64,000 nucleotides of DNA, taken from positions 2,609,502 to 2,673,501 of the forward strand of contig NC_087393.1 of NCBI RefSeq assembly GCF_963675165.1, read 5' to 3'. Source of the stretch: Halichondria panicea. Taxonomy: Eukaryota > Porifera > Demospongiae > Suberitida > Halichondriidae. Each line of letters begins with the position of its first letter. Position 1 is the first letter of the stretch. Position numbers and translations under genes: made by a program. A model generated the notes under the pieces. It was not told where the DNA came from, ran no database searches, and saw only the letters and a list, made by a program, of their open reading frames with translations. Of this stretch, positions 3,438 to 61,588 are shown piece by piece.

Positions 3438-3598
3438 TAAACCTCGCTTGCGCATGCGCAACATGATTTGATAATTATGATTAGGTTTCAATCAATAAAC
3501 AGCATTTTTAACTTCCACGGTCCACCTCAAGTTAAATATATGGATCAGCCTAGATTCAAGTTATAGACTAAGCTACTAGGTTCAGTACGTTAGCTAAC

Positions 3599-5302
3599 AT
3601 GAATAGGTATAAAATCATGATCTTAGCTGTTGGACTACTAAGTGTGTTAGATTGTAGTGCAGCCAAGAATTATTCTTGCCAGCAGTCTGTAGCACAAAAT
3701 CCTCCTGGATTGTGCCCTACTTGGTATTGGTACCAGAGTACTCAGTGTATTTGTGGCGGTAATGAGCACACTGGTATTTATATCACTCAGTGTCATGTTC
3801 CACCACAACTTCTCAGAGGAGACTACTGCGCAACCTTTGAAAACAATATGACATATTTAGGACGCTGCCCTTACAACACACGATACGATGCAACACCACA
3901 CGAAGCTATAACGCAAGACACATTCCAACTAACTGAGCAAACATGTAGCCCTCTGAATCGCACTGGGCTTTTGTGTAGTGAGTGTTTACCAGGACTAGGA
4001 CCAGCCGTGTTTTCTTACTATCGAGAATGCAAACAATGCGTGGGTTCTTCATATGGATGGTTTCTCTTCTTTGTGAGACTAATGTTGCCACTTACTGTGT
4101 TATGCATTATTGTCATTGTATTTAGGATCAATATCACATCTCCTGCTCTGAACGGATTCGTGCTTTGTGTGCAACTGATTACAAATGCGTTTAACAATTA
4201 CCCGTTTGCTGTTCGTGGATTAGAGGAATCATACTCGATAACAAAATTCGTTGCTGATGTATACGGATTATTCAGCTTAGATTTTTTCACATATGCTACT
4301 CCCTCATTTTGCATCAGTGAGGAAATGAACATGTTAACAGTGTTGTCATTGCAATATATTGAGGCTCTTTACCCAATGGTATTGATATTGCTTGTGTACA
4401 TCTGTATAGCGCTACATGACAAAGGGTGCAGAATAATTGTGATTGCGTGGAGTCCATTGCACAAATGCTTGGTAAGATTCAGGAAGAGTTGGCAAATTAA
4501 AGGGTCTGTGATTAATGCATTCACAACTTTTACATTGTTGTCATACTGCAAGTTGTGTTCTATCTCACTGTACCTGATCCAACCTGTTACAATTTGGAAT
4601 GTGTGTGGATCTACTACAAATAACATCTACTATGATGCCAAGACAGAAGCATTCTCTAAGAACCACATTCCGTACCTCGTTTTAGCATCTTTCTTTACCC
4701 TGTTCTTTGTTCTACTGCCTGCTCTTTTCATCTTATTTTACCAGAACAGAATTTTTCAAAAGTGTCTTGCATTATGTCCATTTAAATGCCTCTTGATACA
4801 CGAAATGGCCAATATTACTCAAGGATGCTTTAAAAATGGAACTGAACCAGGAACAAGGGACTATCGATGGTTTGCTGGCTTTTATCTAATCCTCCGAGTC
4901 ATTCTGGTGTTTTACATCAACCAAGAGTACAGTGAACTAATGTACGTAGTGGCACCGGCCATTGTAGCTGTATTGGTGCTAGCATTACGCCCATACCGTG
5001 TTGACTGGTGCAATATTCTCGACTCTATGTTTTGGTTGATATTTTCCATCGGCGCAGCTTGGCACCTGTATTGGACAGCATATAATGCTGCATGGAGAGA
5101 ACTACCAAACGTTTTGAAACTTATTCCTCTTGTATATATTGTATGCTACGTAGCTTATTCGACTTTCAAAGTGTGTCGATCGTGGTACAAAACAAAAAGG
5201 TCTAAAAAAACAAAAATAGACAATGAAGAAGAGACAATCCCCCATCGCCTTCTGTATCCAAATGAGTATGAACCACTTATTGCAACAGTTTCTCAAGATT
5301 AA
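3599..5302 (+). CDS. multi-pass membrane protein with Cys-rich ectodomain
   Basis: Intronless 567-residue frame. Residues 1-21 look like a signal peptide. Residues 22-148 are a Cys-rich extracellular segment ending in RTGLLCSECLPGLGP and CKQC. About eight hydrophobic spans follow (near 150-176, 185-203, 245-270, 302-325, 357-382, 424-441, 448-463, 473-493, perhaps 503-520), then a basic and acidic cytoplasmic tail. The RTGLLC-x2-C motif followed by LNG(F) and later Y-RWFAGFYLILR resembles, from memory, a large uncharacterised multi-pass family expanded in sponges and cnidarians; no function is assigned. ATG 3599 is chosen because the signal peptide follows directly. The 3' part and the 3' flank are duplicated at 6038-7450, where the copy is broken. 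Confidence 0.88.
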   Translation: MNRYKIMILAVGLLSVLDCSAAKNYSCQQSVAQNPPGLCPTWYWYQSTQCICGGNEHTGIYITQCHVPPQLLRGDYCATFENNMTYLGRCPYNTRYDATPHEAITQDTFQLTEQTCSPLNRTGLLCSECLPGLGPAVFSYYRECKQCVGSSYGWFLFFVRLMLPLTVLCIIVIVFRINITSPALNGFVLCVQLITNAFNNYPFAVRGLEESYSITKFVADVYGLFSLDFFTYATPSFCISEEMNMLTVLSLQYIEALYPMVLILLVYICIALHDKGCRIIVIAWSPLHKCLVRFRKSWQIKGSVINAFTTFTLLSYCKLCSISLYLIQPVTIWNVCGSTTNNIYYDAKTEAFSKNHIPYLVLASFFTLFFVLLPALFILFYQNRIFQKCLALCPFKCLLIHEMANITQGCFKNGTEPGTRDYRWFAGFYLILRVILVFYINQEYSELMYVVAPAIVAVLVLALRPYRVDWCNILDSMFWLIFSIGAAWHLYWTAYNAAWRELPNVLKLIPLVYIVCYVAYSTFKVCRSWYKTKRSKKTKIDNEEETIPHRLLYPNEYEPLIATVSQD

Positions 5303-6037
5303 AGACTCGAACATCAATGAGTAGATTAGTAGATTGCTGAGAAGTATAAAAATCTGATTTGCATTTAAAAGATGTCTTTGATGATAATTATGATGATATA
5401 AATTATTTTGCTCTGTAAATCCATAACATAACACCATGTAAGCTATAGAATAGCCTAATGCATGCACACAAAATTAATAATGATGATTTCCTAACAAAAC
5501 ATGCCATGCACTGAAGTTTTTTCCATGTCCAGTGAACAAGCCCAGTTTGCTTCGTCACAATTACCAGAAAACTGACTCATGCACAAATACTCCCAGTGAT
5601 GTTAATACCCTAAGACTTTAACTGTCAATTGACATCTGCAGGTATATCATACCATGACTAGCTTCTGACTCTTTAGCTATGCTCCTATTGAAATTCCTAT
5701 GCTGCATGGTTAGAATCTTGTTCCTTATTATATAACTACCGTATATAGCGGGTAATTTTCGTAGGGCAAAATATTCGTGGTTTTCATGGTTGGAGCTTAG
5801 ACCATGAATATTTTACCCACGAATGAAACGACCTTGCCTACCTTTACCTGCAGTGCAAGCAACTACCACGATAATATTACCCATGAAATATCTCAATATT
5901 GCTGAACCACGAATACTTTGTCCCTCGAAAATCACCCGCTATAATTATGGTATATAAGCACATGTATACTGAAATGTTTTACTCCCTAAATGCAGCAGAC
6001 CCAAACGTTATGACTTGACATGCAGTTGTAATTATGA
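5303..6037. other. intergenic; 3' flank shared with the pseudogene, plus one MITE
   Basis: The span 5303-5660 is similar to 7049-7450 (both contain CAATTGACATCTG and related words), so the tandem duplication covered the 3' flank as well as the gene. The remainder is the inverted-repeat element at 5737-5953. No gene seen. Confidence 0.7.
5737..5953. mobile_element. MITE, GCGGGTAATTTTCG family
   Basis: The left end TATAGCGGGTAATTTTCG and the right end CGAAAATCACCCGCTATA are near-perfect inverted repeats around a non-coding centre holding ACCTTTACCTGCAGTGCAAG. Relatives lie at 18201-18400, 41511-41722, 49181-49386 and 62305-62485. Confidence 0.85.
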
Positions 6038-7048
6038 AGTACGGATTATTCAGCTTAGATTTTTTCACATATGGCTACTCCCTCATTTTGCATCAGTGAA
6101 GAAATGAACATGTTAACAGTGTTGTCATTGCAATACATTAAGGCTCTTTACCCAATGGTATTGATATTGCGTGTACATCTGTATAGCGCTACATGACAAA
6201 GGGTGCAGAATAATTGTGATTGCGTGGAGTCCATTGCACAAATGCTTGGTAAGATTCAGGAAGAGTTGGCAAATTAAAGGGTCTGTGATTAATGCATTCA
6301 CGACTTTTATGTTGTTGTCATACTGCAAGTTGTGTTCTATCTCACTGTACCTGATCCAACCTGTTACAATTTGGAATGTGTGTGGATATACTACAAACAA
6401 CATCTACTATGATGCCAAGACGGAACAACATTCCGTACCTCGTTGTGGCATCTTTCTTTACCCTGTTCTTTGTTTTATTGCCTGCTCTCTTCATCTTATT
6501 TTACCAAAACAGAATTTTCTTGCATTATGTCGATTTAAATGCCTCTTGATACAAGAAATGGCCAATATTACTCAAGGATGCTTTAAGAATGGAACTGTAC
6601 CAGGAACAAGGGACTATCAATGGTTTGCTGGCTAATCCTCCGAGTCATTCTGGTGTTTTACATCAACCAAGAGTACAGTGAACTAATGTACGTAGTGGCA
6701 CCGGCCATTGCAGCTGTATTGGTGCTAGCATTACGCCCATACCGTGCTGACTGGTGCAATATTCTCGACTCTATGTTTTGGTTGATATTTTCCATCGGCG
6801 CATCTTGGCACCTGTATTGGACAGCATACAATGCTGCATGGAGAGATCTACCAAACGTTTTAAAACTGATACCTCTTTTATATATTGTATGCTATGTATC
6901 CTATTCGACTTTCAAATTGTGTCGATCGTGGTACAAAACCAAAAGCTCTAAAAACAATGCAGTAAACAACAAAGAAGAGACAATCCCCCATCGCCTTCTG
7001 TATCCAAATGAGTATGAACCACTTATTGCAACAATTAAAAGGACTTGA
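6038..7048 (+). pseudogene. 5'-truncated frameshifted copy of the 3599-5302 gene
   Basis: Starts abruptly at the equivalent of position 4262 and follows the parent almost base for base to the stop. It lacks the signal peptide and Cys-rich domain. Small deletions break the frame: two bases lost near 6170, a loss near 6424, about a dozen bases near 6517 and seven bases near 6635. It therefore reads only as fragments at 6171-6635 and 6620-7048. The tail motif IPHRLLYPNEYEPLIAT is kept. Not expected to give a functional protein. Confidence 0.9.
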
Positions 7049-13710: not shown

Positions 13711-16047
13711 ATGGCTGATCAGGTACAGGATCTAGTACCTGTCGGTGTGTTACATGCGATATATGCATACAATTATGATGTACTAGACTATTTATATGTC
13801 TGTTTGTAGAGTCTATAGGCGTAGGCCTAGATCTTCTACTAGGCTTGAGGCTATTATGCTCCAAATTTTACCGGTTATCCCAAGCTATAGCCTATTATTC
13901 TCAGTGATTCAGCCCATTAAAAAGCATATTATTCTTCATTAAAATCACAATAAAAATCATCTTTTGATAATTGCAATACAAGTGAAGTCTCTACATATAA
14001 TATGTACATATAGTCCTGAAGAGCATTGTCTTGCTGATCACCAAACAAAGTGCCTTGAGTTGATCCAGCATCAATATATTACTAGGGGGGTTGGAACTGG
14101 AATCATAGTGGCTTCAGTAGGTTCAGTGTCTGTTGTGTTGGGATAGGCACTACTGGCTGTACTCTTGATTCTTCAGATTCTTCAGATTCCATATAAAGTA
14201 CTAGCTACATGTAGCTGCAGTCTAGTCCAGATCAGAGTACAATATTAAACCATAGATTGAAGAGTTAGAGCTAGAGGGATAGGAAACGGTAGTTGGGCGG
14301 AGTCCAACCAACTGTGTGGTCAGTTGGTTGGACTCCGCCCAACTAAGGAAACGGAGTGGTGCACGTGATGATTTTACATTGAATCTGCAGTGGAGCCTCG
14401 AAAACTATCCGCGTTATGCCCTATGAACGAGGCTATTAAGCACATTTTTGCCGGGTTGCTCCCAAAGCTGTGTTTCCTCGAGACATCATCTCTTTCAGCA
14501 ATTTATAACACGCCTAGTCCATGAACCTCGTGTAGTACTTGTAATGACTGACCACACCCAGTAAAAAGAGACTTTCCAATAAAGTTATATGTTCCCAAGG
14601 CTGTTTTAGAGCTAAATGAACATGTAACGTGTAAGCGTGCTGGTTATGACTACTACAATAGGTATAGACCTTGAAATATAAGTGAGTTGCACGGACTAAG
14701 CATAGTTACTTGTAGTTTATTATGCACTGGGTGTAGAAATAGGTATTGTTGTGATGGCCTCGATTAAACCGCGGGGAAACACGGATCGTACCACGAGGGT
14801 GCTTCCGTTTCCAATCCCCCTTTTCTTTATCTATGATTAAATGGTAATTGTGCTTTATTTAGAATGCTAGCCACGCGGTATAATATTCCCACCCACTCTA
14901 CCGTTTATTCCCGCATAATTCCTAATGCTCCAAGCTACCTATTATTCTCAAAATTATGCTCGCATATAATCGCCGCATCCCTATCTTCTACTAAGTAAGT
15001 TTGCTGAATAGTGCACTTTTCATGTCAGTATATAACATTTTTGTTTCGATAACCCAATAAATAAGCTAACATTTTTCTTGTCACTTGTGGCTTCTCTCAT
15101 GCATGCAGACTCTTGACATCCTCCATCCCTCAACATCTCTGGAGTGGGAGGAATGGCCCTCTCTACCAGTGAGGATGAATGATGCCTCTTCAGTGTATCT
15201 GAATGGAACACTGTATGTTGGAGGAGGGTCTGCTAGTGAATCTGATTGGGAAGCTGATGCTTCACTGTACTCATTTAAACCTGGAGTTGACAGCACATGG
15301 ACAGTGACAGAGACACCCACCTCTTACTATACTCTTGTCGTCCATGACTCTGAACTGCTACTGGTGGGTGGGTGTGAGTATTTTACAGGAGCGATAACAA
15401 ACCAAATATTTACAATGAGGGATGGAGAGTTTGTTGAAGCACTGCCTCTTATGAAAGAGAAACGAGAATCACCCTCTGCTGTCAGTAGTGGGTCTGCACT
15501 AGTTGTGGCTGGGGGGTGGGACACCTCAGAAAATCTCTCCTCTGTGGAAGTGTTCAAAGATGGCAAATGGACGACTGCTCCCTCCCTACCAAGTGCAGGG
15601 TCTGTTATGCAGTCTGCTCTCCATGGTGACCAGTGGTACCTGATCCGTGATCAGGGGGAAGTATTTTGTGTGTCGCTTCTATCACTCATATCTGGAGCTG
15701 ACCCATCGCCATGGGAGACGCTACCTGATGCTCCTAATAGCTGCTCAGCTGCTTCCTTCTTTGGTGGCCGCCTTTTGTCCATTGGAGGAGGGGGTCATAG
15801 TAACTACACAACAGCCATCTATGCTTTCTCCACATTCACCCAGTCCTGGGTACATGTTGCTGACCTCCCTGTACTGGGTTTGCCAACAGCTCTTGTCCTG
15901 TTAAGTGAACAATTGATTGTGAGCAGTGGTGATAGAATACTTCGAGGAAAACTTAGTGGTGAGTTGATGCCTAAATCAAATGCCTTTTCACCTTACTCAC
16001 TTGAAGTACTCGTACAAGCTTTGAAATTCTTAGGAAACATAAGTTGA
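13711..16047 (+). CDS. kelch-repeat protein
   Basis: Proposed two-exon model. Exon 1 is 13711-13722 (MADQ, donor GTACAG) and exon 2 is 15109-16047, after a TGCATGCAG acceptor; both are phase 0, giving 316 residues. The second exon is certain as coding: it holds about six kelch-type blades with paired glycines and spaced Trp (LYVGGGSA, LLLVGGCE, LVVAGGWD, LLSIGGGG, then VSSGDR) typical of a beta-propeller interaction domain. No BTB, F-box or kinase domain is seen. Without exon 1, ATG 15085 or 15103 in the same frame would be the start. The kelch half of the gene at 54739-61588 is likewise carried on one long exon, so the two may be related. The intron holds the element at 14251-14835. Confidence 0.78.
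14251..14835. mobile_element. MITE, CATAGAT...GGAAACGG family, with nested hairpin
   Basis: The left end CATAGATTGAAGAG...GGATAGGAAACGG and the right end CCGTTTCCAATCCCCC...ATCTATG match the 35-bp ends of the copy at 40648-41171. Interior words ATTTTACATTGAA and TACCACGAGGGTGCTTC are shared with 53435-53854. The 14290-14345 hairpin is inserted in the left arm. Confidence 0.8.
14290..14345. mobile_element. 56-bp perfect hairpin element nested in a MITE
   Basis: Two perfect 25-bp arms (starting TAGTTGGGCGGAGTCC, ending GGACTCCGCCCAACTA) surround a 6-base loop. AGGAAACGG stands directly on both sides (14281-14289 and 14346-14354), an exact 9-bp target duplication. Confidence 0.9.
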
Positions 16048-17450
16048 TCACCAGGGGCGATCCGATAAGGGGGGTGCATCGTGGCGCGCCAAACCACACC
16101 CAATTCCTGTGGTTACGCCCTTTTGGGCGGCCATGCCTTACCGGTTTTTCTTTAATTCCCATGTACCAGTACAGACGTAAGAAAAAGCTAGTAATAGGCT
16201 TAGCTAATGTAGCTATCTACTGGTGTAGAGTTGTTGTAGAGTTGTTGTAGAGTTGTTGTAACATTAGTTGCAGTAGTAGCTTTTCCTCTCTGGATAGCAG
16301 TTTAAGAGCAGGGATGATTGAACTATACTGAGCTACTTAGAGTCTGGATGGGGGTGCATGCCCTAAGCACCACCCTGTGTACGTCACTATATACACTATA
16401 TAAGTGTACACACCACATATTAAATAAATACATGCACCTGATATGTAGCAGGAGCCCATAAATAAGAGAAGGAGCGGCTGACTACGGGGATCACGTTTCG
16501 TAAGTGGTTATGACCGCATTTCCATATATGCAGAGTCAAAGTGGTTGAATCCCTACACGTTTTATACGCAATACAGGTCTGCGGTTTGCAAGCATTTAGT
16601 CACTTCCATAAAAGGATGTGCGATTTCACCAGCAATTACGAAACGTGATCCCTGAGTATACGTTAAAGTTTGCCGCTCCTTCTCTTATTTATGGGCTCCT
16701 GTATGCAGACAGTCACTATTCTACTAGTATCTGACTCCCACGCACATTCCAGATGTCACAAACACTTTAAAGTATGAATAAGTATATCCCAAGCACATTC
16801 CATTCCAGACTTTCTTCTTGCTATGTCGCAAATACTGTAAAGTAGGAAATGTGCCTAACTAACCACACAGTGAGTGTATTCATACCTGAAGGCACGCTTA
16901 CAGATTTCATTGGGTTTGACATAATAGGATGTGCATTTCATTGGCTCTGGAACACTCATGAGTAAGAGACTCTATACCATTGGTTTTTACCCGAGATATT
17001 AGGTCTGGCCCCCGAGACTACTATATAAGTCTACAGCCAGTCTCCCCTTAAAAGGCAGAAGAACCATCAGTCACCACCGCGTCTCCTCCAGCCATGCACC
17101 TTCCAGAGGAATGGTTTTGCCTTGTGTTCTTTTAGTAAAAAAGTGGAGAATAACTAGTGGGCGGGGCATAAAAAAAGGGCATAGTCTTCAAATAATTCGG
17201 CAGGCCGCACAAATAATTATTTAAGAACCCCCTTCCTTAAATCCTGGATATGCCCCTGTGCGTGGGAGTCAATTCATGCACTCTTGACACTATCAACACA
17301 CACTTATGATGTCAGATGAATTTTCACAATAAGTATATTCATTAACTCGCAATTCTTATGATAACATACGCACTCATAATGTTGCTTTGTGTATTTACTA
17401 TATGAAGTCCGATATTACACACTGCGTGCATAGCACTAGCTATAACATGT
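16048..17450. other. intergenic, repeats only
   Basis: Contains an 11-12 bp tandem repeat GTAGAGTTGTT at 16222-16262, the foldback element 16450-16700, and a fragment near 17215-17262 ending AAATCCTGGATATGCCCCTG that resembles the end of the 11918 element. A short upstream exon of the death-domain gene could lie near 17050-17110, but nothing decides it. Confidence 0.6.
16450..16700. mobile_element. foldback element with 29-bp perfect ends
   Basis: AGGAGCCCATAAATAAGAGA... at 16450-16478 is exactly inverted at 16672-16700. A second internal inverted pair is GATCACGTTTCGTAA / TTACGAAACGTGATC. Non-coding. Confidence 0.9.
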
Positions 17451-20400
17451 TTGAAAGAACACATCACAAAAAATACTGCAGTGACACCCTTTGATGCTGA
17501 CAGTCACTTCACTATGAGAGTTATTGATTGCCTCAAGGCTTCAGCAGGAATCTCTCTGATAGAGGAGCTTGTACAACACACACCCACTGCCTTCCCTGCT
17601 GTTGCTGGTGTGGATGTTCGGGCAATGTATGACCTCATCTTGAGAGAGTGGGAGTCAGGACGTGGATCACACCCACCCACATGGACAGAGTTGTTCAGAT
17701 CTCTCAAGGAGATGGGCTCGAATGAGCTGGCGGGTCGAATGGAGAAGTGTCTGAGAGGGTCGGTTCCCGAGGACCCACCTCGACTGAAGACTGAAGACGG
17801 TAGCTCGGAGGAGGAGAAAGATGGTGAATAATTATATCAATTATTATCTGTCTTTTTTTTCATGCTTGAGATTCCACAGATGAAACACCAGAGCAAGAAA
17901 TTCTCAGGTTAAACAATGTGCTGGCTGAGTACAATAGTGCTAATACTCTACTGAAGAAGGAGAATATTCAATTGAAGAAGGCGAACAACAACCTTGAGCA
18001 AGAGATTGCTTCTTTAAAGGTGAAAAAAGAAAAACTGGACCCAGTCTCTATCAAAGAGGAACCAACATCTGGCAACGGTTTGAAACAGTTCGTGTACATA
18101 AGATACGCATAAACATGTTCTTTGTATAGATTATCAGAAGCATATCAAACAGGAAACTAAAGCTGATCCTGATGGTGAGTGATGGTATCACCATGTATGT
18201 ATACCGTATAGCGTGTAATTTCGTGGGGTAAAATATTCGTTATTTTTGTGGGCAAGCTGACCTCCACGAAATTGTCACGTAGGCGTGGCTTACCGGAGTG
18301 CAGTGCAGACAACGAGACTAAAGATTTTTACTCACGAAAACCACTGTTTCTCGAGTGGAACGAATTTTTTACTCCACGAACATTACCCGCTATACGGTAT
18401 AGGGTTGAATCACAGAATACGCATGTGTACTTACATGTTTGTATAATTAGAAAATGCTAAAAAAAATCTATGTCTATATAACAGCTTTAACAATGTACTC
18501 TATATACATATCATAATTATAATTATATACTCTGTATAGAGCAAAATGTACTAATTATTAATATCTGTTCGTAGCTGTAAATTTTTTTTTAATACTATAC
18601 TCACCGGCAGTGAAAAGTGAAAAACCAGGCTCGCAGCTACTACCTTTGGGACTGTCTACTGTACAGCATCATGCAATACCATTCAGTGAGTTAGTTACCA
18701 CCTCGTTTGCATTGTTCTATATACTGTTATACCTCCACTCAGACCTCCGTGGTGTTGACGTTGTCGCCAGCACTTGTGTGATTGTCACCAACTTCCCCCA
18801 AACCTTCCACTGGGTTGGCTATGGGTTCAAGCTCACCATACCCCAGGGCTCCCTGCCAGCTGGTGTTGACCAGTGTCGACTAGACATCAAGGCCAGTGTA
18901 GCGGGACTGTACCAGTTTCCTGACAATCTCCAGTTGGTCAGTGGTGTCTTCTGGATACGTCTTCTTCCCTTGTGTCAATTCCGACAGCTACTGACAGTCG
19001 AGATACAGCACTGTGCCAAGATGACCAGCTCCACCAAGCTCTCATTTGTGAGAGCATGTTGCTCCCAGGAGAGTCTGCCCTACAAATTCAAGCAGCTAGA
19101 AGGGTGTGGCTCGTTCACTGAGCACATCTCGTACGGATCACTAGAGCTAAACAAGTTCAGTGGACTGGCTGTAACAGGAGAAGATGTAGAGAGAGTGTAC
19201 ACTGCCAGTCTATATTATCAGCAATGTGATCCTCAAACACTAGAAATTCATTTTGTCATCACACGGGATTCTGAAACACACATCACTGTATGTCCAATTA
19301 TATATACATTGAATTTAACTAACTCAACGATTTATCGTTTCAGGCAACTAAAGAGTATTTTAAAGACCTGGGAGCAAAAGAGAAGTCACACATGCAGGTA
19401 GAATTCAAGAAACACAAAATAACTCTGAGCGTCCCAATGACTGGTGTGGTCATTGGAGAGTGGAATCTGATACCAACCGTCTCTCCATGCGTAAGTTGAA
19501 TTCTATATTAAGAAATGTCGAGCATTGTAAATGCAGATTAATCAGAGTACAGTGGACTCGTTCAAACCTGGTAGAACGATTAGATCACGACGATTGAAAG
19601 CTACCTTAACACGAGACTTTGGAGCAGAAGTCCCTGCTTGCTCCTACTTGGTCACCCTGAAGGGCGCTTGCAAACCAAATCAAATGCTGATTGAAATTGA
19701 CTCATACCATCCCAGTAAAGGGCAACCTACTTCTGTTGTCTCAATACCAGTGAACCAAGATCCACCAAGTCAGGCTTTAGTAGCATCTTCTGATGTTTAT
19801 CTATATCCCACCTCGTATCGTAAGTTGAATTTAGCTTGAGGTAACTATATAATTATAATTATGTTTTGCACATGCAGCGCTGCTCCAATCAGTACCAGGA
19901 TTCTCTCGAGGTTAGCTCTTTGACTCATTATTATTCTTTTAATATCTGTACATGCAGGATACTCTTGGACCAGTGCTCTTCCACAAATTCATCAGGGATA
20001 TGCACCATACACACAAGCGTCGTATCCGTGGTTGCAAGGTATTGTATCTAATTGGCTTCTGTTGGTGTCTTCAATTATTCTTGTGCAGATTGTGGTGAAC
20101 TGGTGACCATGATTGGCCAAGAATCAGGTATCTGTGGGTGGTATTGGTATGCCTTAGCAACACTATCATGGTTTTTCTGTGTTTATGCAGGCACAATCAG
20201 TGCAATCGAGTGTCCAGTGCTGAATATGGACCAATTGATATATCGCGTAGGCGTCGACGAAGATCTCCTAAAAAAAGAATGTTCAGAGAAGAATTTAAAA
20301 AAGATAGCCCCTCTCCTTGCAAACTGGCTAATGTACGCTAAAGCCTTGGAACTGACTCAGTCTCAAATACAGGACATAGATGGTCATAAACTATTGAGCA

Positions 20401-20747
20401 CCAACGAAATGAAGACTTTGCTAGTGCTGGAGAAGTGGCATCAGCTTCATGCCTTCACTGCCACCTATCATCATCTCATTAATGTGTGTCTAAGTTGTGG
20501 TCATGCTACTGAAGCCACTGAGATTTGCAGAATTGTCAAAGGTTAGTAAAATGTAATGCTAACTGTATAATTATCATTCCTGAATGTAGAGGACTTCTCC
20601 TTACCACCCCCCATTATTGATGAACACCGAGAAAGGTAAGAGTCAGATTGTGTCAAGTTGGTAATACATTATAATATTTTATATTCATACAGTTCCTCAC
20701 AAGAAACAAGAGAAAAAGTGTGTCATAGACTCATAGAAAACACATAA
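17451..20747 (+). CDS. death domain - coiled coil - ZU5 - death domain protein
   Basis: Thirteen exons: (17451)-17823, 17880-18077, 18130-18174, 18611-18685, 18743-19287, 19344-19490, 19537-19819, 19878-19910, 19958-20038, 20089-20127, 20191-20541, 20590-20635, 20693-20747; 756 residues if ATG 17451 is used. The exon could instead begin at an acceptor near 17508, so the N-terminus is uncertain. Residues about 25-108 look like a death domain (MYDLILREWESG, PPTWTELFRSLKEMG, ELAGRM). A heptad-like Lys/Glu coiled coil lies near 135-175. A ZU5 domain covers about 233-340 (HWVGYGFKLTIPQGSLPAG is diagnostic), followed by an unassigned beta-rich part. A second death domain is near 640-720 (LLANWLMYAKALELTQSQIQ, LLVLEKWHQ, TYHHLINVCLSCGHATEA). 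ZU5 plus death is seen in ankyrin, UNC5 and PIDD proteins; this order with two death domains and no ankyrin, Ig or LRR repeats is a cytoplasmic adaptor-like design. Most introns are 45-60 bp. Confidence 0.86.
18201..18400. mobile_element. MITE, GCGGGTAAT family, in an intron of the death/ZU5 gene
   Basis: Ends ATACCGTATAGCGTGTAAT and ATTACCCGCTATACGGTAT are inverted repeats. It occupies most of the 436-bp intron between exons 3 and 4, the longest intron of that gene. Confidence 0.85.
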
Positions 20748-31644: not shown

Positions 31645-34600
31645 ATGGGTAATGTACCACTCTGTGTACCAAAGAAAGGTGGACCAATTGTGTTTACTGA
31701 ACGATACAATTTCCAAACTGGAGGTCATCCTCTTTCTATGAACCAGTATCACCCGTACGAATCAAGCCTTGAGGATTTATGCAGTCCAGAGCTACCAAGA
31801 ACTAGTGTTAGTTCTCCTTCTGAAGGAAACAGAAGGCAAAGCTTGTTGATAGGGGATCCAATAGTCGGTATAGAGATTGATCAAGAGTCGGTACGTTGTA
31901 ATATAAATTAAACTGTACAACGTATTACTACTACAAGTCATGTAGATATACGCTTCAGATCGAGAGTGATGATTTAAGTTAATAATTAATGTACATAATA
32001 CAAGGTAAATGGTAGTTGTGCTATTTACGTCTATTCCATTTATACACTAACCATAACATGCATATATACACATAGCTTATTCTTTGTCAGAGGCCATTCA
32101 AAACTAACCCACAACATTTTTGTAGCCATGCATCAATTGCCATGGCATACACATAATTATGTGGTTGACCATGTGCATGTACATGCAGCACATACATGTA
32201 TGTACGTAACCATGATCAACAGACTTCGTTTGTATGAGGTTACACGTATATTTATATCCGTGCTTTTCACACTCAAAATCTATTTTTTAAGGCCTGAATA
32301 ATTACTCCTAATTGCCAATGAGTGTAAACAGATCCCGTACAATGTGCTCTTCACATACCATCACAATTTGCCAATAAATCTAAATGCATCCATTATTTTC
32401 CAAAACTACACAAACCTGTAGGATCAAGTCTACTCTGGATTGCTGCAATTTCAATATTTTGATGGGAATGAAATGAGAAAAGAAAATGTCCATGTTAAGA
32501 GCTCTGATAGTATTGCGAATTTAATTCCAATTCTAAAATCTACATTTATTGCAAGTTTCACAGACCAGTCTAAAGATTACGAAATGAGCGATGGTGAAAA
32601 CCACAGCTATGTGGCACTTGTACAGGGAGAAAGTAAGTACAATTCATTAATTGCTATGGTATGATTGTATACCTTTCGATAATACCAGATATAGTTTTTA
32701 ATGTGCGTACATGTTGGGATGACTAAATATGCCACTAATGATAGGTCAACCTATGTCTGACAATAGACAACTGTTACAACGTATGTAATCACTTGCCACT
32801 GATGAATTAAATCCTTGTAAACAAATGTACAGTGGAGAGGGAGCTGGATATGATGGACAAGCCACTCGAGATAGCGTTGGACTGTTCTTCCAAAGGTCTA
32901 GCCTCTCCCAAATTCCTTTTCAAGTCTCCCCTATCCGAACAAACAGATACGCCACTAATGGCTCGTCAAACAAATCGCTTCACTTCTTATGTCGGATCAC
33001 TAGCACTACCTTCAGGCTCAGAGAATGAAGAGTCACCAACAAACAGTAAACACTTGAAAACTTTCAACAGAGATTTTGATCAAACAAGCATGACCAGCTT
33101 TGGCAGTGCTTTCAGCTTATCTTCAAAGAGCAGCAAGACAAAATCAACATCTTCTCTAGTCGTCAAGTCAAAGAAGAAGAAGCTAGCTCACACGTTGTCA
33201 AATCAAGAGACTGCGAAATCCAATAAAGCAGACTTCCTCACACTCGAGTCATCTCCTGCCCATCATCAATCACAAACACTGATCGATTCTCCTGTCTCAA
33301 CCAGAAAAAATGGTAATCGAAAATCAATCATGACCAACTTCATTTCAAGGTCATTGAGGATTAGAAAAAAGCACAAACGTTCAAAAGACACTACAAATGA
33401 CTCACCAGATGGAAATGAAAATAATCTATCTCAAAATACAACAGACGAAATGCTTCCAGTAAGCAGTCTGATATCCCCATTGCCAGCAGACAGAAGGTTT
33501 ACCTTGAGTACTGTGATGCATATTTACTACATGAAGCCGAAGCAGGTACAGCTGTACAAAAGCGTACTTGTATCAGAGAAAGCGACAACAGAGCACGTGA
33601 TCACTCAGGCCCTCGAGCGGTACAACATGAAGTACTTCAATCCTGATGATTTTGGCTTGTACGAAGTGATTGGAAAATGGCAGGAGATTGCGGGAACCCT
33701 GCCATCCAATTCAAGTCTCCATGTATCCAGTTCAAATAGTGGTACCTCTTTAACACTCCCTAATAAGCATGGCACAAGCCCTCTTGTCAATCGTCGCACA
33801 GCAGTTGAAGAGTTTGTTGTTTGCTATTCAAGAGAATTGAATCACGAAGATTGTCCATACAACAGTCAGTTTTTTCTTGACACAAGGGAAGGCTATACAA
33901 GGAGGTTTGAACTACGCCAGAAACCTTCTAAAGAAGTTGATGGAAACAGAAAGGAAAGTACTGTTTCTGCATCAGCTGTAGAAGCAGTAAACGAAAAATT
34001 AGTGCCAGAATCTGGCCAAAGAAGTTTATCGATTGCACACATAAATTGTAATTCCGAAGAGTCTCCAGTGATTTTTGGTCAAACTACTCACCGAAAAAGA
34101 GCAAGAAGGAATAGAATCAAAGACTCATCAGCTTCCCTAAACGAGCTATCAGAAGAATTGAAAATACATGACGATGAAGAGCGAAAGAACACAATTTCAT
34201 CATCCACACCAGCAGATCAACGCCACAAAAAATCATCTCTTTTTACATGCTCTTCACCCGAAAATAAGGTTGGCAATGGTACTCATTGTTGTAATGATGT
34301 ATACACACCTGTACCACAGAGTCCACAGAGTGAAATGGCCCCCCTTGACACACCAATCCTCCTGAATCTTCGCATACACGAACCAAGAAAGGAAAAATTA
34401 GTTCACGTACTTTCAGCAGAATCGACTCATATAGTTGGCAAATCAAGCTGCAAAACATCACAAGAAACACCAAAAAATGATTCAGAAATTGTCGTCTGTC
34501 AACCGGAAATCAGAGATTCAACCCCACTTTGTTCAATCTGCCGCCACCACCCCATTTCAAATTCAACTTGCTTCGAGGTAATAGCTGTGAATGACCTCGT

Positions 34601-37600
34601 ACCAGTAATGGTAAATGGTGAAACCATTCAACAAAAGGTATCTCTTGTTCACGGAGATTTAATCTCAATTGGAGCAACACACATGTTCCTGTTTCAAAAT
34701 TTCTCCTGCCAGATCCCTAACTATAGATGGGAACCTCAATGTGTAGAGAAATCTTCTGTTAATGTAGATGTGATGCGACCTTCTTCACAACTCAGCATAT
34801 CTAGCGTCAGCAGTAACGATGAACCGAATGGCAAGCTTACGATTAGGTCTGGGGCACTTGGTTTGAACTCCCGATCGACATCTGAGTTTAGCCTAACTGT
34901 TGAGGATGTGGATTCTCAGACGCTGACAGAGATTAATTTAGGGAGTATGAGCATTAGTGATAGCCCTAGCATGACACACTCGAGCAAAAAGCCAATAGCA
35001 CAGTGCAACCAAAGTGCCCATACTCGACTCATGATGAGGCAAATGAACGAGAATACTGATAGAGAAACAATAACCATGACTCTACCTACAAACTCCGAAG
35101 GAATCGACAACAAGACTGAAGATACGCAAGTGTTTTTATCTGAATCAAAGAAACAACCACTAAAAAAATCTTCTTCTCTACCATTTCACACAATGCCACG
35201 TAAACTGATGTTCTCTTATTCCTTGAATGAAGAGGATGCACTTCTCACATCACTAGTCAGTCAGTTCAGCTCACCTGAGGCTGGAGCTCAGCTTGGTCCA
35301 TCCTTTGCACTTTCGATGTGTATTGAGTATGGAATGATGTGTTATGGCCAAAAAGCTATGACTGCGTTCATCAAGAAAGCAACTTCCCTTATTCAAAGCA
35401 AAGCATGGGTGAGTAAATTTTGGACCTTGAAATAATTTGATAGTTTACATATTTGTACCACCACAGGAATTGTGTAAGAACTTATCAGAATGGCAAATTG
35501 ACACCGAAAAGTAAGTCCCTTCAATGCTAATTACACTATACTCAGAATTTTAAACCATTATCAGAGCCAAAAAACCAGTGACAGTATTAAAGGAGCTATT
35601 TGCCAAGCTCGAAGCAGTTCTGCTCTTACTAGCAAACACCCTTGAGCTCTACTACTTCATCACCACCAACTGCCGGTCTCTCAACTTCTCCGAGCCTGTT
35701 TCACCACCGCAGTGGAAGAGTTGCGATCAGGAGCAAGTGCAGGGAAATCATAGCGTGCTTCTCGATCTTTACAACGTGCTGGTATACACATTCCAACAGG
35801 CATTCTACTCTGTCAGCAAAGTAAGTCTGCTCAGCTAGAATGAACAGTCACCATCATCATGTGATCTGCATAGATTCATACTGTGACAGCAAATTAAATT
35901 ATAGTGCTACTCCGATTTACAAGCACCGTGTTGGAACAGTCCTAAAATCATGTGTGACACTTATAGGTTCTCTATCATGCTCTCCCTGTGATTCTGGGTG
36001 GATGCACCGAGGACAAGCTAAGAGGCAAACCTGAACCACCAATAGTGATTGATCAAGCTGTGGATTTCCTACAGGCCCTATTTGATCTGCTCACCAAAGT
36101 GCACATCCATCTAGAGGTATGTACGCACATTAATTTGTACAGAGATGATATACTGGATGTTTATATTTATTATCTTGCCATGGATACAGGTACATGTATA
36201 GGTATTTATTCTGTACATGTAGACTACATAATAATTGATTAGCAAGAGTAAATTTTAATGAGAACAGAATCGATAGAGCGTCTTACTATCGTACGTGATT
36301 CAATGTCTTCCTGCTCTACTGTATAATTATGTAAAATCAGATTTTGTATACTTATAATTTATTACACACAACTAAAATATAAGAAAGAAGCTCCATATCC
36401 TTCTCATTTGCTCATGTAATTATCCTAGGTTGTTAACCACACAACGTCATGATATTAAATCCATAGGTTGTCTCCCAGTTCTTTGCCAACGTCTTCTTCT
36501 TCACAAATGCTGTGATGTTCAATGCATTGATTGAACAAGGAGGAGACTTGTCTCTCTATCAATGTAATTCTGGACTGGCAATGAGGTCAGGCTTGCTCCC
36601 CTAAAATACATAATGTCTAACAGACTGTAATATTATTCAATCACTCAGGGCCAATCTTGATCTGTTGGAGGGGTGGGCTTGCCAAGTCGGATTCAGAGAT
36701 AGTGTGCTGCACTACTTGGCTAAATTCTCTGGAGCGATGGACCTTCTTTCTTCATCACACACACAACTGTTAGAGGTGCGAAACCAAGACATCATGAGGA
36801 GAGTATAGATAACATGCTGTACTTTTTGCACCCAGATGGATTGGTACAATTTTCGTAAAGAGTACCCAATGCTGCATCCTGCTCAGCTGCATTTCATTCT
36901 CAGCAACTACCTGTTACCAGTTTCCCATGTGCCTAGCCACTGGACTCCCACACAAGAAGATGCGTTGCACGCTGTGAAAACAGGTAAGTTTTGTGATGAT
37001 TCCACCATGCTATAATTATAGTGCTTAAAAGTTAGTAACATTATGCCTGATTTGATTTCAAACATGCTTCACAATTCTCCAGGGTCATTGAAGGAATCTT
37101 TTGATCATCATCCCTCATTCGAACTGCCCACCTCTGGTTACACTATTGATCTGACCAAAACTTCCGATGACATGGAGCATCTACAGCCCTATTTAGAGGG
37201 CTTGAGAAAGCAGCTAAAGTCACCTAAAAGTTAGTTTTTTAATGGTTCTCACTGCATTTACTAATAAATTTGTCTTTCCTCCCCATTCAACCAAACCTTG
37301 ATCCTGTTTGGAACAATAGGAAGGTGAATTTACTTGTATAATCTAGCAGTATATAATTATAGCTATAATGAATGGTTAATTACAGTAGTGCATCCTTTTT
37401 TCCAGTGTTGACATTGTGCCTATTACCGAGAGTATGTCAATTACATCGTACGTAAACGACGATTCATCAGAGAGTATGCCAACACCTTCACACAATAAGC
37501 CACACAAAGTACGGAAACTATTGATAAATGCCTCACCTGTTAGAGCGAGACGAAATATTGGAAGCAACACAGAATCTCAAGAAGATTTACTAGAAGACAC

Positions 37601-38707: not shown

Positions 38708-41700
38708 ATGCGCCCTACACTGGCTGTGTGGGTACCTGTTCTGTGTCTGCTCCTTGGGTACACATCACTAGGAAGTTCAAGCCCTCAGAGTGCTAGATTT
38801 AATCCAAAGTCTCTGGTAAAAAGGCTCGTTAGCAAGTTCCCCTTCATATATGATGAGGACAACTCAGATCATGGGGCAACAAATGAAAGATTCATTCGTG
38901 ATATTCATGTGACTTCTAACTTGGAACAGGAGGAGCGTGGAAACTGCTCGGACATTCACAATCCACCCCCCAAATACAATGGGTCAATGTGTGAGCTTAT
39001 ACGGGAGGAGTGTGACGATAAATATGAGCTGTTTAACTATCTTGACTTCGTTTTGTGTGGACTTGGGGAGTCCCTTCAAGTGAGTTCTCATTGTTGACAG
39101 AAAACAATGCAAAGAGTTTGTAGTACTAGATTTGTTTAATAATAAGGGCACGTGATCGCTATATAAGGTGATTCTCGCATGAGTGAGATATTTTTTCACA
39201 CAGCCACTTGGATTCATTATCCTGGGACTCTGGTTGATATACCTTCTTTCTCTTCTTTCCACAACTGTGAGTTCTGTTGAAGAAAACTGCAAGTATCTGT
39301 GTCAATTGAGTTTATCGATGCACTTAGCATGCACTTCAAATAAACTTTCGGCTTGTAAGATTGTATACATATTCGTGTCCAAATAATATGTATCTGTGTT
39401 ATGACATTAACATTTTGACCCCCCCCCCCCAACCCCTTGTATAAGAAAAGCACACATGCATGCCGCACACGAGGCTGTAGTATCAATGTTACGAAAGATC
39501 TGTGGAATCAAAGATTCAGAAATGGAATCTTTCATTATAGGTCGACAAGTTCTTTGTTCCAGTGCTTCAAATGATAGCTGATAAATTACATCTTCCACCA
39601 AGCATTGCCGGAATGACCCTACTTGCACTCGGAAATGGTATTGTAATGTAAAAATCACAGATCTGTGTATAAATGTCGTTAATCCTGCATGATGCAGGTG
39701 CTCCTGACATATTTGTTGCATTCTCTGCTCTTACCAAGGATGATGATCTGACGCTAGTACTTGGGTGAGACATAACGCACTTGTAAAACAGCCTCTTGTA
39801 AATTTTGGATAGAGTATTGAAAATGTCACATTGCAGGGCGTTAATGGGAGCTGGATTGTTCATCACAACCGTTGTGCTTGGACTGGTGCTCATGGTTTCA
39901 AAATCACGAAACTACAACATTGGTAAGATGATACATGGTAATAATTATTCATGCGCACAAATAATATTTGTACATGCAGATAGGATTGATTTCATGAGGG
40001 ACATCATTGCCTTTATGGTAGTTCTTGTTGTCATTGTGGGCGTATCAATTGATGGAAAAGTGAGTTATTTTTCATTAAAACAGCCGATTACATGGTTACT
40101 ATAATTATCATCAAAGCCATAATTTTGTGTATTATGTGCATGCTTTTCCCCATGCAGGTGTACTTGGTAGAAGTTTCCCTGTTTCCGCTAACTTATATTG
40201 GTTATGTTGTGGCAGTGCTTGGAATCACAGTCTTCAGAGTGAGTAGTAGCATTCGTTTGCAGTCACTGCGTAGAAAAAAGAGCTAAGTCTAATTGTTGCT
40301 TTAAATGCACTCCTTCCTTTATCTACATGCACCAAAGATGCACGGTCTTGAAAGTGGGCCACCATGTAGCTGGTGATATACTAGCTTTGGTCCCAGGCCA
40401 ATTTTTCTGTAGGAGAAAAATACGGCCTGGTATCTATTGTGGGTGATAGTGCATGCGCATACACTGATTTACTCTTTCAAAATATGGGGAATTCTCGTTA
40501 CTCTTTACATCTATGTTTCTATCTATGTAAAGCAGCTTAGCTCTCTATTGCGTTGGTCTAGAAAGCTTGCACACTATAGCATAGGGCTTTCATCTAACTC
40601 TATAATTATGATGGTCGTACGGTTGAGATGTCTGAATTTGGTTTCGTCATAGATAGAGTAGAGAGGGATTGGAAACGGAAGTACCCTCGAAGTACCATCC
40701 GTGTATCTCCGCGGTTTTAATCGAGGCTTATTTTTTTAACACGAGGGCTAAACATAAATAATTTATGAGAATTGTTTTGCTCTCTGTAAGAAATCCACGA
40801 GCAGTTCTGTTGCTAAACATCAACTTTTTCTAGGCCATTTGGGACACAGGACACTATTTAGTTACACAGCCTTAGCTATATCAAAGGCACTATAATATAG
40901 GAACACAAGCATGAAAAAGCGCTTTGTGTACCTCTAGCTACTTCACGACAATCGATTTTCTTTGTTTCCAATTGATGCCTACTATCAGGGGGCATGAGAT
41001 TCAGTAATGGAGGTAGCTCTGAGATGTATGTATTGGACACGATACATTTCCCGGGCTTTTGCGGGAGTTATGAGGAGATACACGGATGGTCCCAGAGCCA
41101 CTACGTAGACTTCATTGTAAAACATCACGTGAAATCACTTCCGTTTCCAATCCCTCTCTACTCTATCTATGGTTTTGTACAGGCTATGGCAATTCTATGG
41201 TGCTTTCAACTGCTGCTTGCGAAGACAACTTCACCATAGACCAACGCAATAGACAGCATAAGACAGTTTCACGGAACTCAGTTGTTAAGTATATTGGGCC
41301 ACTCCAAATCTATTTTTCAGCCATGCAGAAGCTGCAGTAAAAATATGGAGCATTATTATTATTATTCATTACTTAAACTTGTGACATTGATGAATTTCAT
41401 TAAAGAAAACCATAGCGTGACAAAAATGCCTAAAAGAGGACGGGAAACTACAGTCTCATTTGGAGTGCCCTATAGTATGATTAACTAAAGGTTTACGTTT
41501 GTAGTACGATTACCGTATAGTGGGTAATTTTCGTTGGCGCAAATTTTCATACGAACGACCCATTTAAAAATTTTGTATTCTTAATTTTCATACAAATTTT
41601 CGTACCGCTCAGGATAGTGACGTTGAATCATGGTAGAATAATTCCGTAGTTTTAATTTTCGTATGATGATCTTCAATACAAAAATTAATGTCCACCGTAT

Positions 41701-49386: not shown

Positions 49387-51387
49387 AGTTATTGCATGCG
49401 CCCTCATGCAACATTCCAAATATGCATTGGATGACAAAATGCCGAAATGCCCTCGAGGTCTGCGGCCCTTGGGCATTACGTTGCACTCTGCAGCCCTCGG
49501 GCATTATGTTGCTAGCACGTTGCACTCTGCTGGGCAATAACTAACTACTATAGTGGTTGTGAATTGCAATAGACTATATCATAATGGTTAAATTTGTGGG
49601 CTGTAAGAGTTAAATGAGGGTGTTTGCTAATCTTAGAGAGGGGGTACAGGAGACTAGTGAGGATATAGTAGCATGCAGCAGTGATGATTGTGTGAAATTT
49701 ATCAAGGCTCTTTCTCAATTCAGTGCTAGGAAGAAAGTATAATTACAGTGACTATATACATACAGCTCAGAAATAAATGCACGTGACGAGTTAGATAAGA
49801 GCGCCACCACAATCAACACGATCCTACTGTACATGCACTAATTATGTTCTCTACTGCAAGAACGTCCTGTCGCTAAACTCAATGCTAGATGCATTCTAAA
49901 TCATAGCGAGTATTTAGGCTGATAAACGCGGTGATTTTCGTGAATAAAAAATTCCTTAGCTGATACGACATCAAGTGCACTGTATTGCATGCGTTTGGCA
50001 AACCTCACCTAAAGGCTTTCATGGAGAAAAGTCTTAATTGTCGAGGTCTGCTTGCCCACAAATTTTTGGCCACACAAAATTACCCGCCATACCTTGAAAT
50101 TGTTTAAGGCCTTCAGGATACCGATCAATTATGTTGGCCAAAGACACGTATATAATTATAGGCATTAATAGGCAAAAAGCCACCCCGAGAAGCAACGCTT
50201 GATCTAGTGGTTTACTGACAGATTAGCTCCAGGTGCATGCATCTTTGTCTGGTATAGACAAAGCTCCACCTATAAAATTTTGGGGTTCAAAACACAGCAA
50301 ACAGTCTTTCCTCAGCGCTGCTGAGAGCGATTGTATGAAACGCCGTGTGAAACAAAAAATTCAGGCAGAATGTAATTGGCATGTGCATCCAAGAATGGTT
50401 TTGATAATAGATTTCTGACAATTGTTCTTTGAGAACATTTTTGAGCGGTTAGCTATCATATGATAGGTCAATGATATTCTATTTAACATGTAGGTATAGT
50501 ATGGAAAGGGGCTTTGGTGTTTCTATTTATAACATGTGCAGTCTGGATGCTTGATCTACATGTATATTGCATTCAGCCCCCAGGACGCTACGCGCCCTCG
50601 GGGATTCAGTACAATTCCTCGTAGCCGTGTTATAACTATGTGAATTGATATCAAAAGTGCATGAGGTGGCTTGATTACAATAATTATAACACACACGCTG
50701 CTTGTAAATGCATGCATGCATGCATATACTATTATCCTCCTTCACTGGCCTCCCCTGAAGAGAAGGCCTGCTACTGACTGCTTGCGCATGCGCAACATTA
50801 TTGGATATTTGTTCCCGTAAAATGTCCTATAATACTGAATTTATCACGAAAATATCCTGACAGAGTATATTGAAAGTCATACACAGAGCTATTTAGCAGG
50901 TGTGTGCATGTCTGTCTACAGCTGCTCAAGCGTAAGTAAGAGTTTCTATTTAATTCGTGGATTTGCAAATAATGCTTGGTTCTTGAGTTATGCCTACCTT
51001 GGAATGGCATTGCAGCCTTTTCATGCAGAAGGGTGCGTAGCACAACTTGTCCATGGAGTGTTGCTACGTACTCTACATTATTTCTTTGCTCTAGAACGCT
51101 ATAGTTATTGGTAACCGCATGCAAGGCTCTACAGTACTGATGCAGCAGCCAGTATACTTTTGCATTTGGAAGGCGGGGTGCTTTCATTGTCTCAGGCAAC
51201 AGGTTCACAGGTTCACGTACATGTATACATTGAGAGCTGTCCCATGCATTTTTAGCCATAATTAAATTAATCGGCTGACAAACTTATAAGCTTAGCACAG
51301 CCAAAAATGAATATCATGATTTGAAGACATGCATGGCGGACTTAGTTGAAGTATTGTGTACAATGGTACATTATCAACTGCAGTAAG

Positions 51388-54433: not shown

Positions 54434-54738
54434 AGTATTACCACCAGTGGCTAGGCTAGGCTGTGCTAGCTAGTGCAGTGAGCAGTCAGATTGAAACTTA
54501 GTAGGAAATAATCGTCATTGGTAGATCCTACCAATGAACATCAATTCAACATGCATGCAAGGGGGAGTGCCACCTCAGAGCCACGCCAAGATTAAAGAAC
54601 ACCGCGCCGTGTACCGAGCAAGAACAAAGCCTAGAGATCTATATCTACCGGTATATATATAGCTAGCTACCAGATTATACCATGACCTAGACGTAGATCT
54701 AGATCTACCTGAAGTTCAATCTATTGAAGATCAGAGCA
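54434..54738. promoter_or_regulatory. bidirectional promoter of TMEM220 and kinase-kelch genes
   Basis: 305 bp between the TMEM220 ATG (minus) and the kinase ATG (plus). Contains TAGATCTAGATCTA-type repeats near 54690-54712 and TATATATATAG at about 54652. Both transcription starts must lie here unless untranslated exons exist. Confidence 0.55.
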
Positions 54739-60700: not shown

Positions 60701-61588
60701 AAAGCTCATGACCTGGGAAGTAGACTATACGTCTGCTGTGGTGAAATGGAGGATGGTCTGCCCAACAAGGGTGTCTTTTACTGCCCGATCCAAGACTACA
60801 CTCGCTGGAAAAGAGCCACCCCGGACGTCCCACAGTACCAAAGTGCATCTGCAATCGTACAAAATGAGCTGGTTCTCATCGGTGGTTTAAGTGCGGTTAA
60901 TGGCAAGTGTACAGGAGCGGTACAATCCTACGACAGCAAGGCTCAGATTTGGGTGGAGCGATTTCCTCCTATGCCGACTCCCCGGTCGTCTGCATCTGTG
61001 TTTGTATACGCCGAGTATGTGGTTGTAGCTGGTGGTCTAGATGACAATAACACGGCACTGAATGTTGTTGAGGTCCTACATATTCCTTCTCAGACTTGGG
61101 AAAGTTCGGCTCGACTTCCGATCAAGATTGCTGGTCACTCAGTAGTGGTGTGTGGGGATCTTGTCTACATGTTAGGTGGTACAGATAACACAAATTTCCA
61201 GCAATCTGTTTTTGTCGCATCAGTCCAAAAAATTTTATCAGCCTGTAGTCGATTCCAGATACTCGCTAGCATTTCTGTGAATTCACTTTTCTCGTCAAAA
61301 CTGACATGGACTAGAGTACAAGACTGTCCGTTTATCAAGATGACTGCTGTATCGAAAGAAAACCAACTGCTAGCATTTGGCGGAGAGGAGGTGACAAAAT
61401 CTGCAAATTCTGTCGCTGCAGAATGGATATGGATTTTTAATCCGCAGAGCAATACATGGACTCCTGTGCAAGGCATGCCGTCGGCACGGAAACTATGTTG
61501 TGTCACTGTTTTACCAGATAACAATCTAATAGTCATAGGGGGAGACCCAGACTACAGTAGGATTGATATTGCTCAGGTTGTTGTGTGA
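54739..61588 (+). CDS. protein kinase - coiled coil - kelch fusion protein
   Basis: Six exons: 54739-55671, 56433-56516, 57314-57385, 58006-58053, 60104-60233, 60468-61588; 2388 nt, 795 residues. Residues 20-300 are a protein kinase: Gly loop GEGAYGVVKLG (27-37), ATP-binding Lys47, helix-C Glu75, catalytic HRDLSSNN (152-159), DLG instead of DFG (172-174), and MPPEV in place of APE. All catalytic residues are present, so activity is plausible. The general look is tyrosine-kinase-like/RIPK-like. Exons 2-4, each phase 0 and a whole number of codons, encode a heptad coiled coil (VAELEKEVTDLTDQLLIK, GRLEGKLEEERSYTAKILDE, LTKVKLKHEVLLENIK). Exon 5 is a Lys-rich linker. Exon 6 encodes about six kelch blades (LVLIGGLSA, VVVAGGLDD, VYMLGGTD, LLAFGGEE, LIVIGGDP). 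ATG 54739 precedes the kinase by about 20 residues. The partner is unknown; this is probably a scaffolded cytoplasmic kinase. Confidence 0.92.
56776..57023. mobile_element. MITE with GTGCTAGAAATATATTGCG ends
   Basis: TACCGTAGTGCTAGAAATA and TATTTCTAGCACTA-type ends (CATTTCTAGCACTACAGTA) are inverted. Lies between coiled-coil exons 2 and 3 of the kinase gene. Related ends at 10464-10660. Confidence 0.8.
58441..58627. mobile_element. MITE with CCTTAAGGTGACATATTTTC ends
   Basis: CCTTAAGGTGACATATTTTC and GAAAATATGTCACCTTAAGG are exact 20-bp inverted ends. Intron 4 of the kinase-kelch gene. Confidence 0.9.
59151..59586. mobile_element. MITE with CCACAAATGTGTGAG ends
   Basis: CCACAAATGTGTGAGTTGCA and TGCAACTACTCACATTTGTGG, and further in GTGCTGATACCATT and AATGGTATCAGCAC, are inverted. 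Intron 4 of the kinase-kelch gene. Confidence 0.8.

Follow-up and report, generated by a model that had tools for sequence, protein, structure and literature searches.

A single sponge gene with a predicted coiled coil, a likely ZU5 domain and a C-terminal death domain: a candidate death-domain scaffold from Halichondria panicea

Does a locus of the sponge Halichondria panicea, lying within a stretch of 64,000 nucleotides (the window, contig NC_087393.1), encode an adaptor protein in which two death domains flank a ZU5 domain, and what might such a protein do in the cell? An earlier note, made from the letters of the sequence, had proposed this architecture, with a coiled coil in front of the ZU5 domain, and had regarded it as a possibly undescribed component of signalling or innate immunity. 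The order coiled coil, ZU5, Death within one gene was borne out, and is discussed below together with the nature of the N-terminal segment and with the possibility of self-cleavage.

Gene model and surroundings

The locus could be read as a gene of 13 exons on the forward strand (17514-20747) with a product of 735 aa. All 12 introns have GT-AG borders; 11 of them measure 46-63 nt and one measures 436 nt, and the reading frame is kept throughout. Since the splice sites were selected by eye to give an open frame, this agreement is partly built in. Independent support is given by the shortness of the introns and by their G+C content of 0.33, compared with 0.54, 0.39 and 0.45 at codon positions 1, 2 and 3, respectively. 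The span 17451-20747 that had been proposed for the gene was correct at its end, where the stop codon finishes exactly at 20747 within exon 13 (20693-20747), but not at its start, as 17451 is a TTG and the first in-frame ATG is found at 17514. Exons 3 (18130-18174), 4 (18611-18685), 8 (19878-19910), 9 (19958-20038) and 10 (20089-20127) are linkers and exon 12 (20590-20635) belongs to the tail, all on the forward strand and as placed by the gene model.

The region could also hold two adjacent genes, namely a short protein of N-terminal segment and coiled coil that ends after exon 2 or 3, followed by a separate ZU5-Death protein. Such a division would fit with exon 2, which stays open when read through intron 2 until a stop codon at 18110-18112, with the unusual donor of intron 2 (GTTTGA) and with the long intron 3 and its insertion. 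However, it is disfavoured because the first ATG in the ZU5 frame is at 19021, inside the domain, the core of which begins at 18817; moreover, the first four exons each end in phase 1, by which the frame is maintained across the supposed border. Two genes are therefore considered improbable, and at the level of its open reading frame the locus is one animal gene.

The insertion in intron 3 is a non-coding element of 202 nt (18200-18401, forward strand) that makes up part of the 436 nt of this intron and is bounded by terminal inverted repeats, with arms of 20 nt that are 95% complementary. Partial copies matching its ends could be identified near 5737-5784, 41511-41534, 50040-50092 and 62445-62480. 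Upstream of the gene lies a near-palindrome of about 250 nt (16449-16701) that matches its reverse complement at 69% identity.

Several other features were observed in the window. The neighbouring ORF regions 3572-5299 and 6165-7045 are accompanied by antisense ORFs (4372-4626 and 6128-6403) that closely resemble each other, which suggests a tandem duplicate; for the region 3572-5299 no Pfam family scored above its cut-off. On the reverse strand, at the edge of the window, a DSL domain was matched (63658-63999, Pfam E 6e-13), and the ORFs beside it look EGF-like by eye, so that this may be a Delta-like Notch ligand. Forward-strand ORFs with Pfam matches to a protein kinase, two kelch-repeat proteins and a Ras-association domain are located at 54703-55740, 60452-61585, 15070-16044 and 32811-35432. 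Together with the DSL domain and the pattern of introns, these ORFs are in keeping with an animal source.

No second copy of the gene beyond chance level was detected within the 64-kb window. Relatives of exons 11 and 5 were absent from the prokaryote genome contigs, and relatives of exons 5 and 1 from the viral contigs; the missing relatives say little, because the collections searched were those of prokaryotes and viruses. As claimed beforehand, the protein appears to have no receptor, ankyrin or LRR part: a Pfam search of all 735 aa (E up to 10) returned none of these and no NACHT. A strongly hydrophobic stretch of 19 residues was likewise not present in the 735 aa (maximum mean 1.46).

The two ends of the protein

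Exon 11 (20191-20541, forward strand) encodes a C-terminal death domain, which is taken as established on the basis of sequence comparison, although it remains just under the Pfam cut-off. The Death family (PF00531) matched exon 11 at 20292-20510 with an E-value of 1.6e-4 and 22.2 bits, missing the cut-off of 22.6 by 0.4 bits, and matched the spliced protein with an E-value of 5.1e-4 and 20.6 bits against the same cut-off. When exon 11 was compared with the PDB by phmmer (E up to 10), six sequences were returned, three death domains of Fas and three of RIPK1, with weak E-values of 0.08-0.95 and 0.97 (best 0.08). Against a profile of death-domain helices 4-6, none of 5000 shuffled sequences scored as well as exon 11. 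The earlier claim of a death domain at this end was borne out by these three results. A profile built from exon 11 and Fas retrieved 26 sequences, among them RIPK1 (E 2e-4), FADD (E 0.013) and ankyrin-2 (E 0.032), and also THO complex subunit 1, ankyrins and CRADD (E 0.95-0.99); the Fas matches of this profile are circular, as Fas itself is part of it. A SIR2 model (PADLOC) that matched exon 11 with an E-value of 0.03 was taken as chance.

In a global alignment with UNC5B with penalised end gaps, the C-terminal death domain reached a z of only 0.56. Because a sound death domain scores so low, a low z in this alignment does not exclude kinship, which has to be kept in mind for the values given below.

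For the N-terminal segment, encoded by exon 1 (17514-17823, forward strand) from the first in-frame ATG onwards, the situation is less clear. The segment had been claimed to hold the first of the two death domains, but Pfam Death (PF00531) gave no match there at E up to 10, an outcome that had been named in advance as one that would refute the claim. The Pfam families that did appear were RNA_pol_A_CTD (E 0.013; 15.6 bits, cut-off 23.8) and DMP19 (E 0.056-0.086, far below cut-off), and a sequence search of the PDB returned three unrelated sequences with E-values of 0.41 or worse. A structure model of exon 1, made with no alignment, had a pLDDT of 52.3 and was too poor for use. A Foldseek search of the models of exons 1 and 5 against the PDB gave nothing with an E-value under 0.26; the entries for ASC pyrin and CED-4/CED-3 that were listed for exon 1 (E 5.8 to 8.0) were treated as chance.

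Directed tests point weakly to a degenerate death domain, and do so within candidate helices 4-6 (about 17604-17771, residues 31-86). The alignments of the segment place helix 5 and the helix-4 tryptophan, and in most cases helix 6, in register with Fas and UNC5B. With a profile built from five death domains that do not belong to the window, 14 of 5000 shuffles scored as well as the segment. In this profile MAFFT had misplaced helices 5-6 of Fas; after manual anchoring of a helix 4-6 profile, decided upon once the first result was known, 6 of 5000 shuffles reached the 6.2 bits of the segment. Global alignment with UNC5B, end gaps penalised, resulted in a z of 1.21 for the segment and of 2.66 for helices 4-6 alone. 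A profile that included the protein's own C-terminal domain was equalled by 1 of 2000 shuffles.

The segment might instead be another helical region, which would leave the protein with a single death domain and the order coiled coil, ZU5, Death. In addition to the empty Pfam search, in which RNA_pol_A_CTD and DMP19 matched better while still sub-threshold, and the low-confidence model that found no match of weight, this reading is favoured by a three-sequence profile lacking any sequence of the window, for which 74 of 2000 shuffles were as good. Among 111 decoy ORFs, the highest score with the helix 4-6 profile was 5.7 bits, close to the 6.2 bits of the segment, and hhalign gave a probability of 0.2 per cent (E 0.3) for exon 1 against the alignment of the C-terminal domain and Fas, with the two aligned in register. 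A direct comparison of both ends of the protein, which is a weak test, showed no similarity (477 of 1000 shuffles as good). Against a single death domain stand the shared register with Fas and UNC5B, the low shuffle counts obtained with the five outside death domains and the z of helices 4-6. Taken together, a single death domain is held to be rather unlikely, and the N-terminal segment is probably a divergent death domain, as judged from sequence comparison.

Coiled coil, ZU5 region and the Phe348-Ser349 dipeptide

Exon 2 (17880-18077, forward strand) is predicted to form a leucine-heptad coiled coil. In the best of the seven heptad registers the d positions are occupied by L, Y, L, L, L, L and L and the a positions by I, L, N, N, N and I. 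A heptad pattern with asparagines in a favours a dimeric zipper. The claim that a coiled coil precedes ZU5 was upheld by this run of seven heptads with hydrophobic d residues; a run of that length arose in 4 of 5000 shuffles. Measured by the share of a and d positions that are hydrophobic or Asn, 266 of 5000 shuffles equalled exon 2. Exon 2 alone matched 11 Pfam families, including bZIP_1 and CENP-H, all below cut-off.

A ZU5 domain is likely present in exon 5 (18743-19287, forward strand), which also contains the start of the following segment. Pfam ZU5 (PF00791) matched exon 5 at 18823-19032 with an E-value of 0.081 and 13.6 bits, below the cut-off of 21; neither the spliced protein nor a trimmed piece of exon 5 gave a match to the family, and a sequence search of the PDB with exon 5 gave no match. 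The domain claimed at this position was not found by Pfam at cut-off, but directed tests supported it, and these are fair because the earlier note had named ZU5 beforehand. A ZU5 profile of UNC5B and ZO-1 scored 8.3 bits against the protein, carried by about 20 residues, and 1 of 5000 shuffles was as good. In global alignment with UNC5B with penalised end gaps, the ZU5 core reached a z of 2.87 (11 of 1000 shuffles as good), the whole ZU5 domain 2.07 and ZU5 with the following segment 1.68. With free end gaps the alignment was uninformative (z of -0.98 to 0.91; kelch control -0.08). The structure model of exon 5, made with no alignment, had a pLDDT of 44.5 and was unusable.

Exons 6 (19344-19490) and 7 (19537-19819), both on the forward strand, occupy the place where a UPA domain is expected, and neither gave a Pfam match. 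Against the UPA domain of UNC5B the segment after ZU5 behaved like its shuffles (1077 of 2000 as good), and the z was 0.35. A UPA domain, for which a test of residues 345-600 had been advised, was not detectable by Pfam, profile shuffles or global alignment. The stretch between Ser349 and the end of exon 7 comprises 185 residues; the UPA constructs of CARD8 and NLRP1 are described as having about 150 residues (PMC7794386).

At the end of the ZU5 region lies the dipeptide Phe348-Ser349 (19156-19161, forward strand). The protein has three F-S dipeptides, and this one is, by hand alignment, at about the place of autocleavage in CARD8 and NLRP1. In a self-cleaving release switch like that of PIDD1, NLRP1 and CARD8, the ZU5 domain would cut itself between Phe348 and Ser349; both halves would remain associated until the N-terminal one is lost, which would free the C-terminal piece with its death domain to cluster. 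Release of this kind, via loss of the N-terminal half after self-cleavage, has been described for NLRP1 and CARD8 (PMC7794386). Phe348-Ser349 follows the histidine of an HC motif by 50 residues, compared with 45 in CARD8. The CARD8 site is given as VEPFYAVLESPSF/SLMGILLR (PMC3210808) and its counterpart here is EHISYGSLELNKF/SGLAVTGE. In an ungapped hand alignment of 21 residues, five are shared with the CARD8 peptide (Y, L, E, F and S) and five with that of NLRP1, F and S included. It is also consistent with a switch that UNC5B is reported to have Leu-Gly at the place equated with Phe296 of CARD8, and that the residue before F in CARD8 could be changed with little effect (PMC3210808).

Self-cleavage is nevertheless held to be improbable, because other offsets along the protein give 5 of 21 identities or more (6 at two of them), a similarity no better than chance, and because the C-terminal CxH motif that is given for the ZU5 autopeptidase superfamily (PMC3482391) is absent from residues 211-391. 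The histidine needed 27 residues before the serine (H270 in CARD8, H1186 in human NLRP1 and H942 in rat NLRP1) is replaced by a proline, with no histidine within three residues on either side; the only one within residues 300-349 is His337. A low-scoring BLAST alignment (E 23) pairs F-S-G of the protein with F-T-G of UNC5B, in a different register. A full death-domain counterpart of the NLRP1/CARD8 switch in an early-branching animal, with coiled coil and N-terminal Death as sensor or bait and a variant ZU5 domain cut at Phe348-Ser349 without the usual histidine to free a Death fragment for assembly, would be less probable still and is regarded as very unlikely.

Proposed function and relatives

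The likeliest function is that of a death-domain scaffold, and it is proposed, with a probability of roughly 55%, that the protein is a cytosolic scaffold in which the ZU5 region holds the tail in check. The coiled coil of exon 2 would hold the protein as a dimer or small oligomer, and the N-terminal segment, which is probably a divergent death domain, would bind a partner that acts upstream. Together, ZU5 and the following segment may keep the C-terminal death domain inactive. The title of a study on UNC5B by Wang et al. (2009), cited in PMC3210808, speaks of its autoinhibition. After release, the C-terminal death domains in the cluster could draw in downstream partners with death domains and so lead to caspase or NF-kappaB signalling. 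The scaffold is favoured by the frame-keeping gene and the death domain of exon 11, both read from the sequence, by the supporting ZU5 tests and heptads, and by the lack of any receptor, ankyrin, LRR or NACHT match and of a strongly hydrophobic stretch. Against it count the Pfam search, which found neither an N-terminal Death nor a UPA domain, the dissimilarity of the two ends in the weak test and the poor models (pLDDT 52.3 and 44.5).

Among known proteins, UNC5B (PDB 3g5b) shares with the sponge protein the succession of ZU5, an intervening segment (UPA in UNC5B) and Death near the C terminus. It differs in its receptor part and its UPA domain, which is undetectable here, whereas the sponge protein adds a coiled coil and an N-terminal segment. 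More generally, Pfam matched neither the ectodomain of UNC5 receptors nor the repeats of ankyrins anywhere in the 735 aa. PIDD1 and the FIIND of NLRP1 and CARD8 also have ZU5, a spacer and then a death-superfamily domain, with F-S near the end of ZU5. However, PIDD1 has two ZU5 domains and LRRs, compared with at most one ZU5 match and no LRR match here, and the FIIND proteins differ from the sponge protein, which has no NACHT match, no histidine at their spacing and no detectable UPA.

In sponges, ZU5 proteins are described as lineage-specifically expanded, with a possible role in defence (PMC3482391); the present gene has a likely ZU5 domain, a sponge host and a proposed role in defence in common with them, any kinship being putative. 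The sponge protein DD2 is reported to have two death domains (PMC5793068, PMC9798719), as may be the case here; it was obtained with Fas primers and is described as similar to FADD and Fas ligand (PMC9798719). The likeness to DD2 is one of description, and the passages on DD2 mention neither ZU5 nor a coiled coil. Amphimedon Death-TRADD-N proteins, with several Death-like domains, belong to the expanded immune-type proteins of sponges (PMC8195603). No TRADD-N match was found in the present gene, and fusions with FIIND and UPA-ZU5 are placed in another TRADD-N clade (PMC8195603). For Dysidea avara 128 Death genes are given, and NACHT-ZU5 genes are reported from early-branching animals (PMC12909245); ZU5 with NACHT is also reported in PMC8260672.

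The description of the protein as an undescribed component can be kept in part: its kind is known from the sponge ZU5 expansion, DD2 and Death-rich repertoires, but the exact architecture was not found in print in the openly readable literature. Most probably, the protein adds to the extensive repertoires of cell-death and immunity proteins that are already known from sponges. An active F-S site would mean that an early animal lineage has a ZU5 release mechanism whose output is a death domain; with an inactive one, the gene would represent one further architecture in the known sponge expansions of Death and ZU5.
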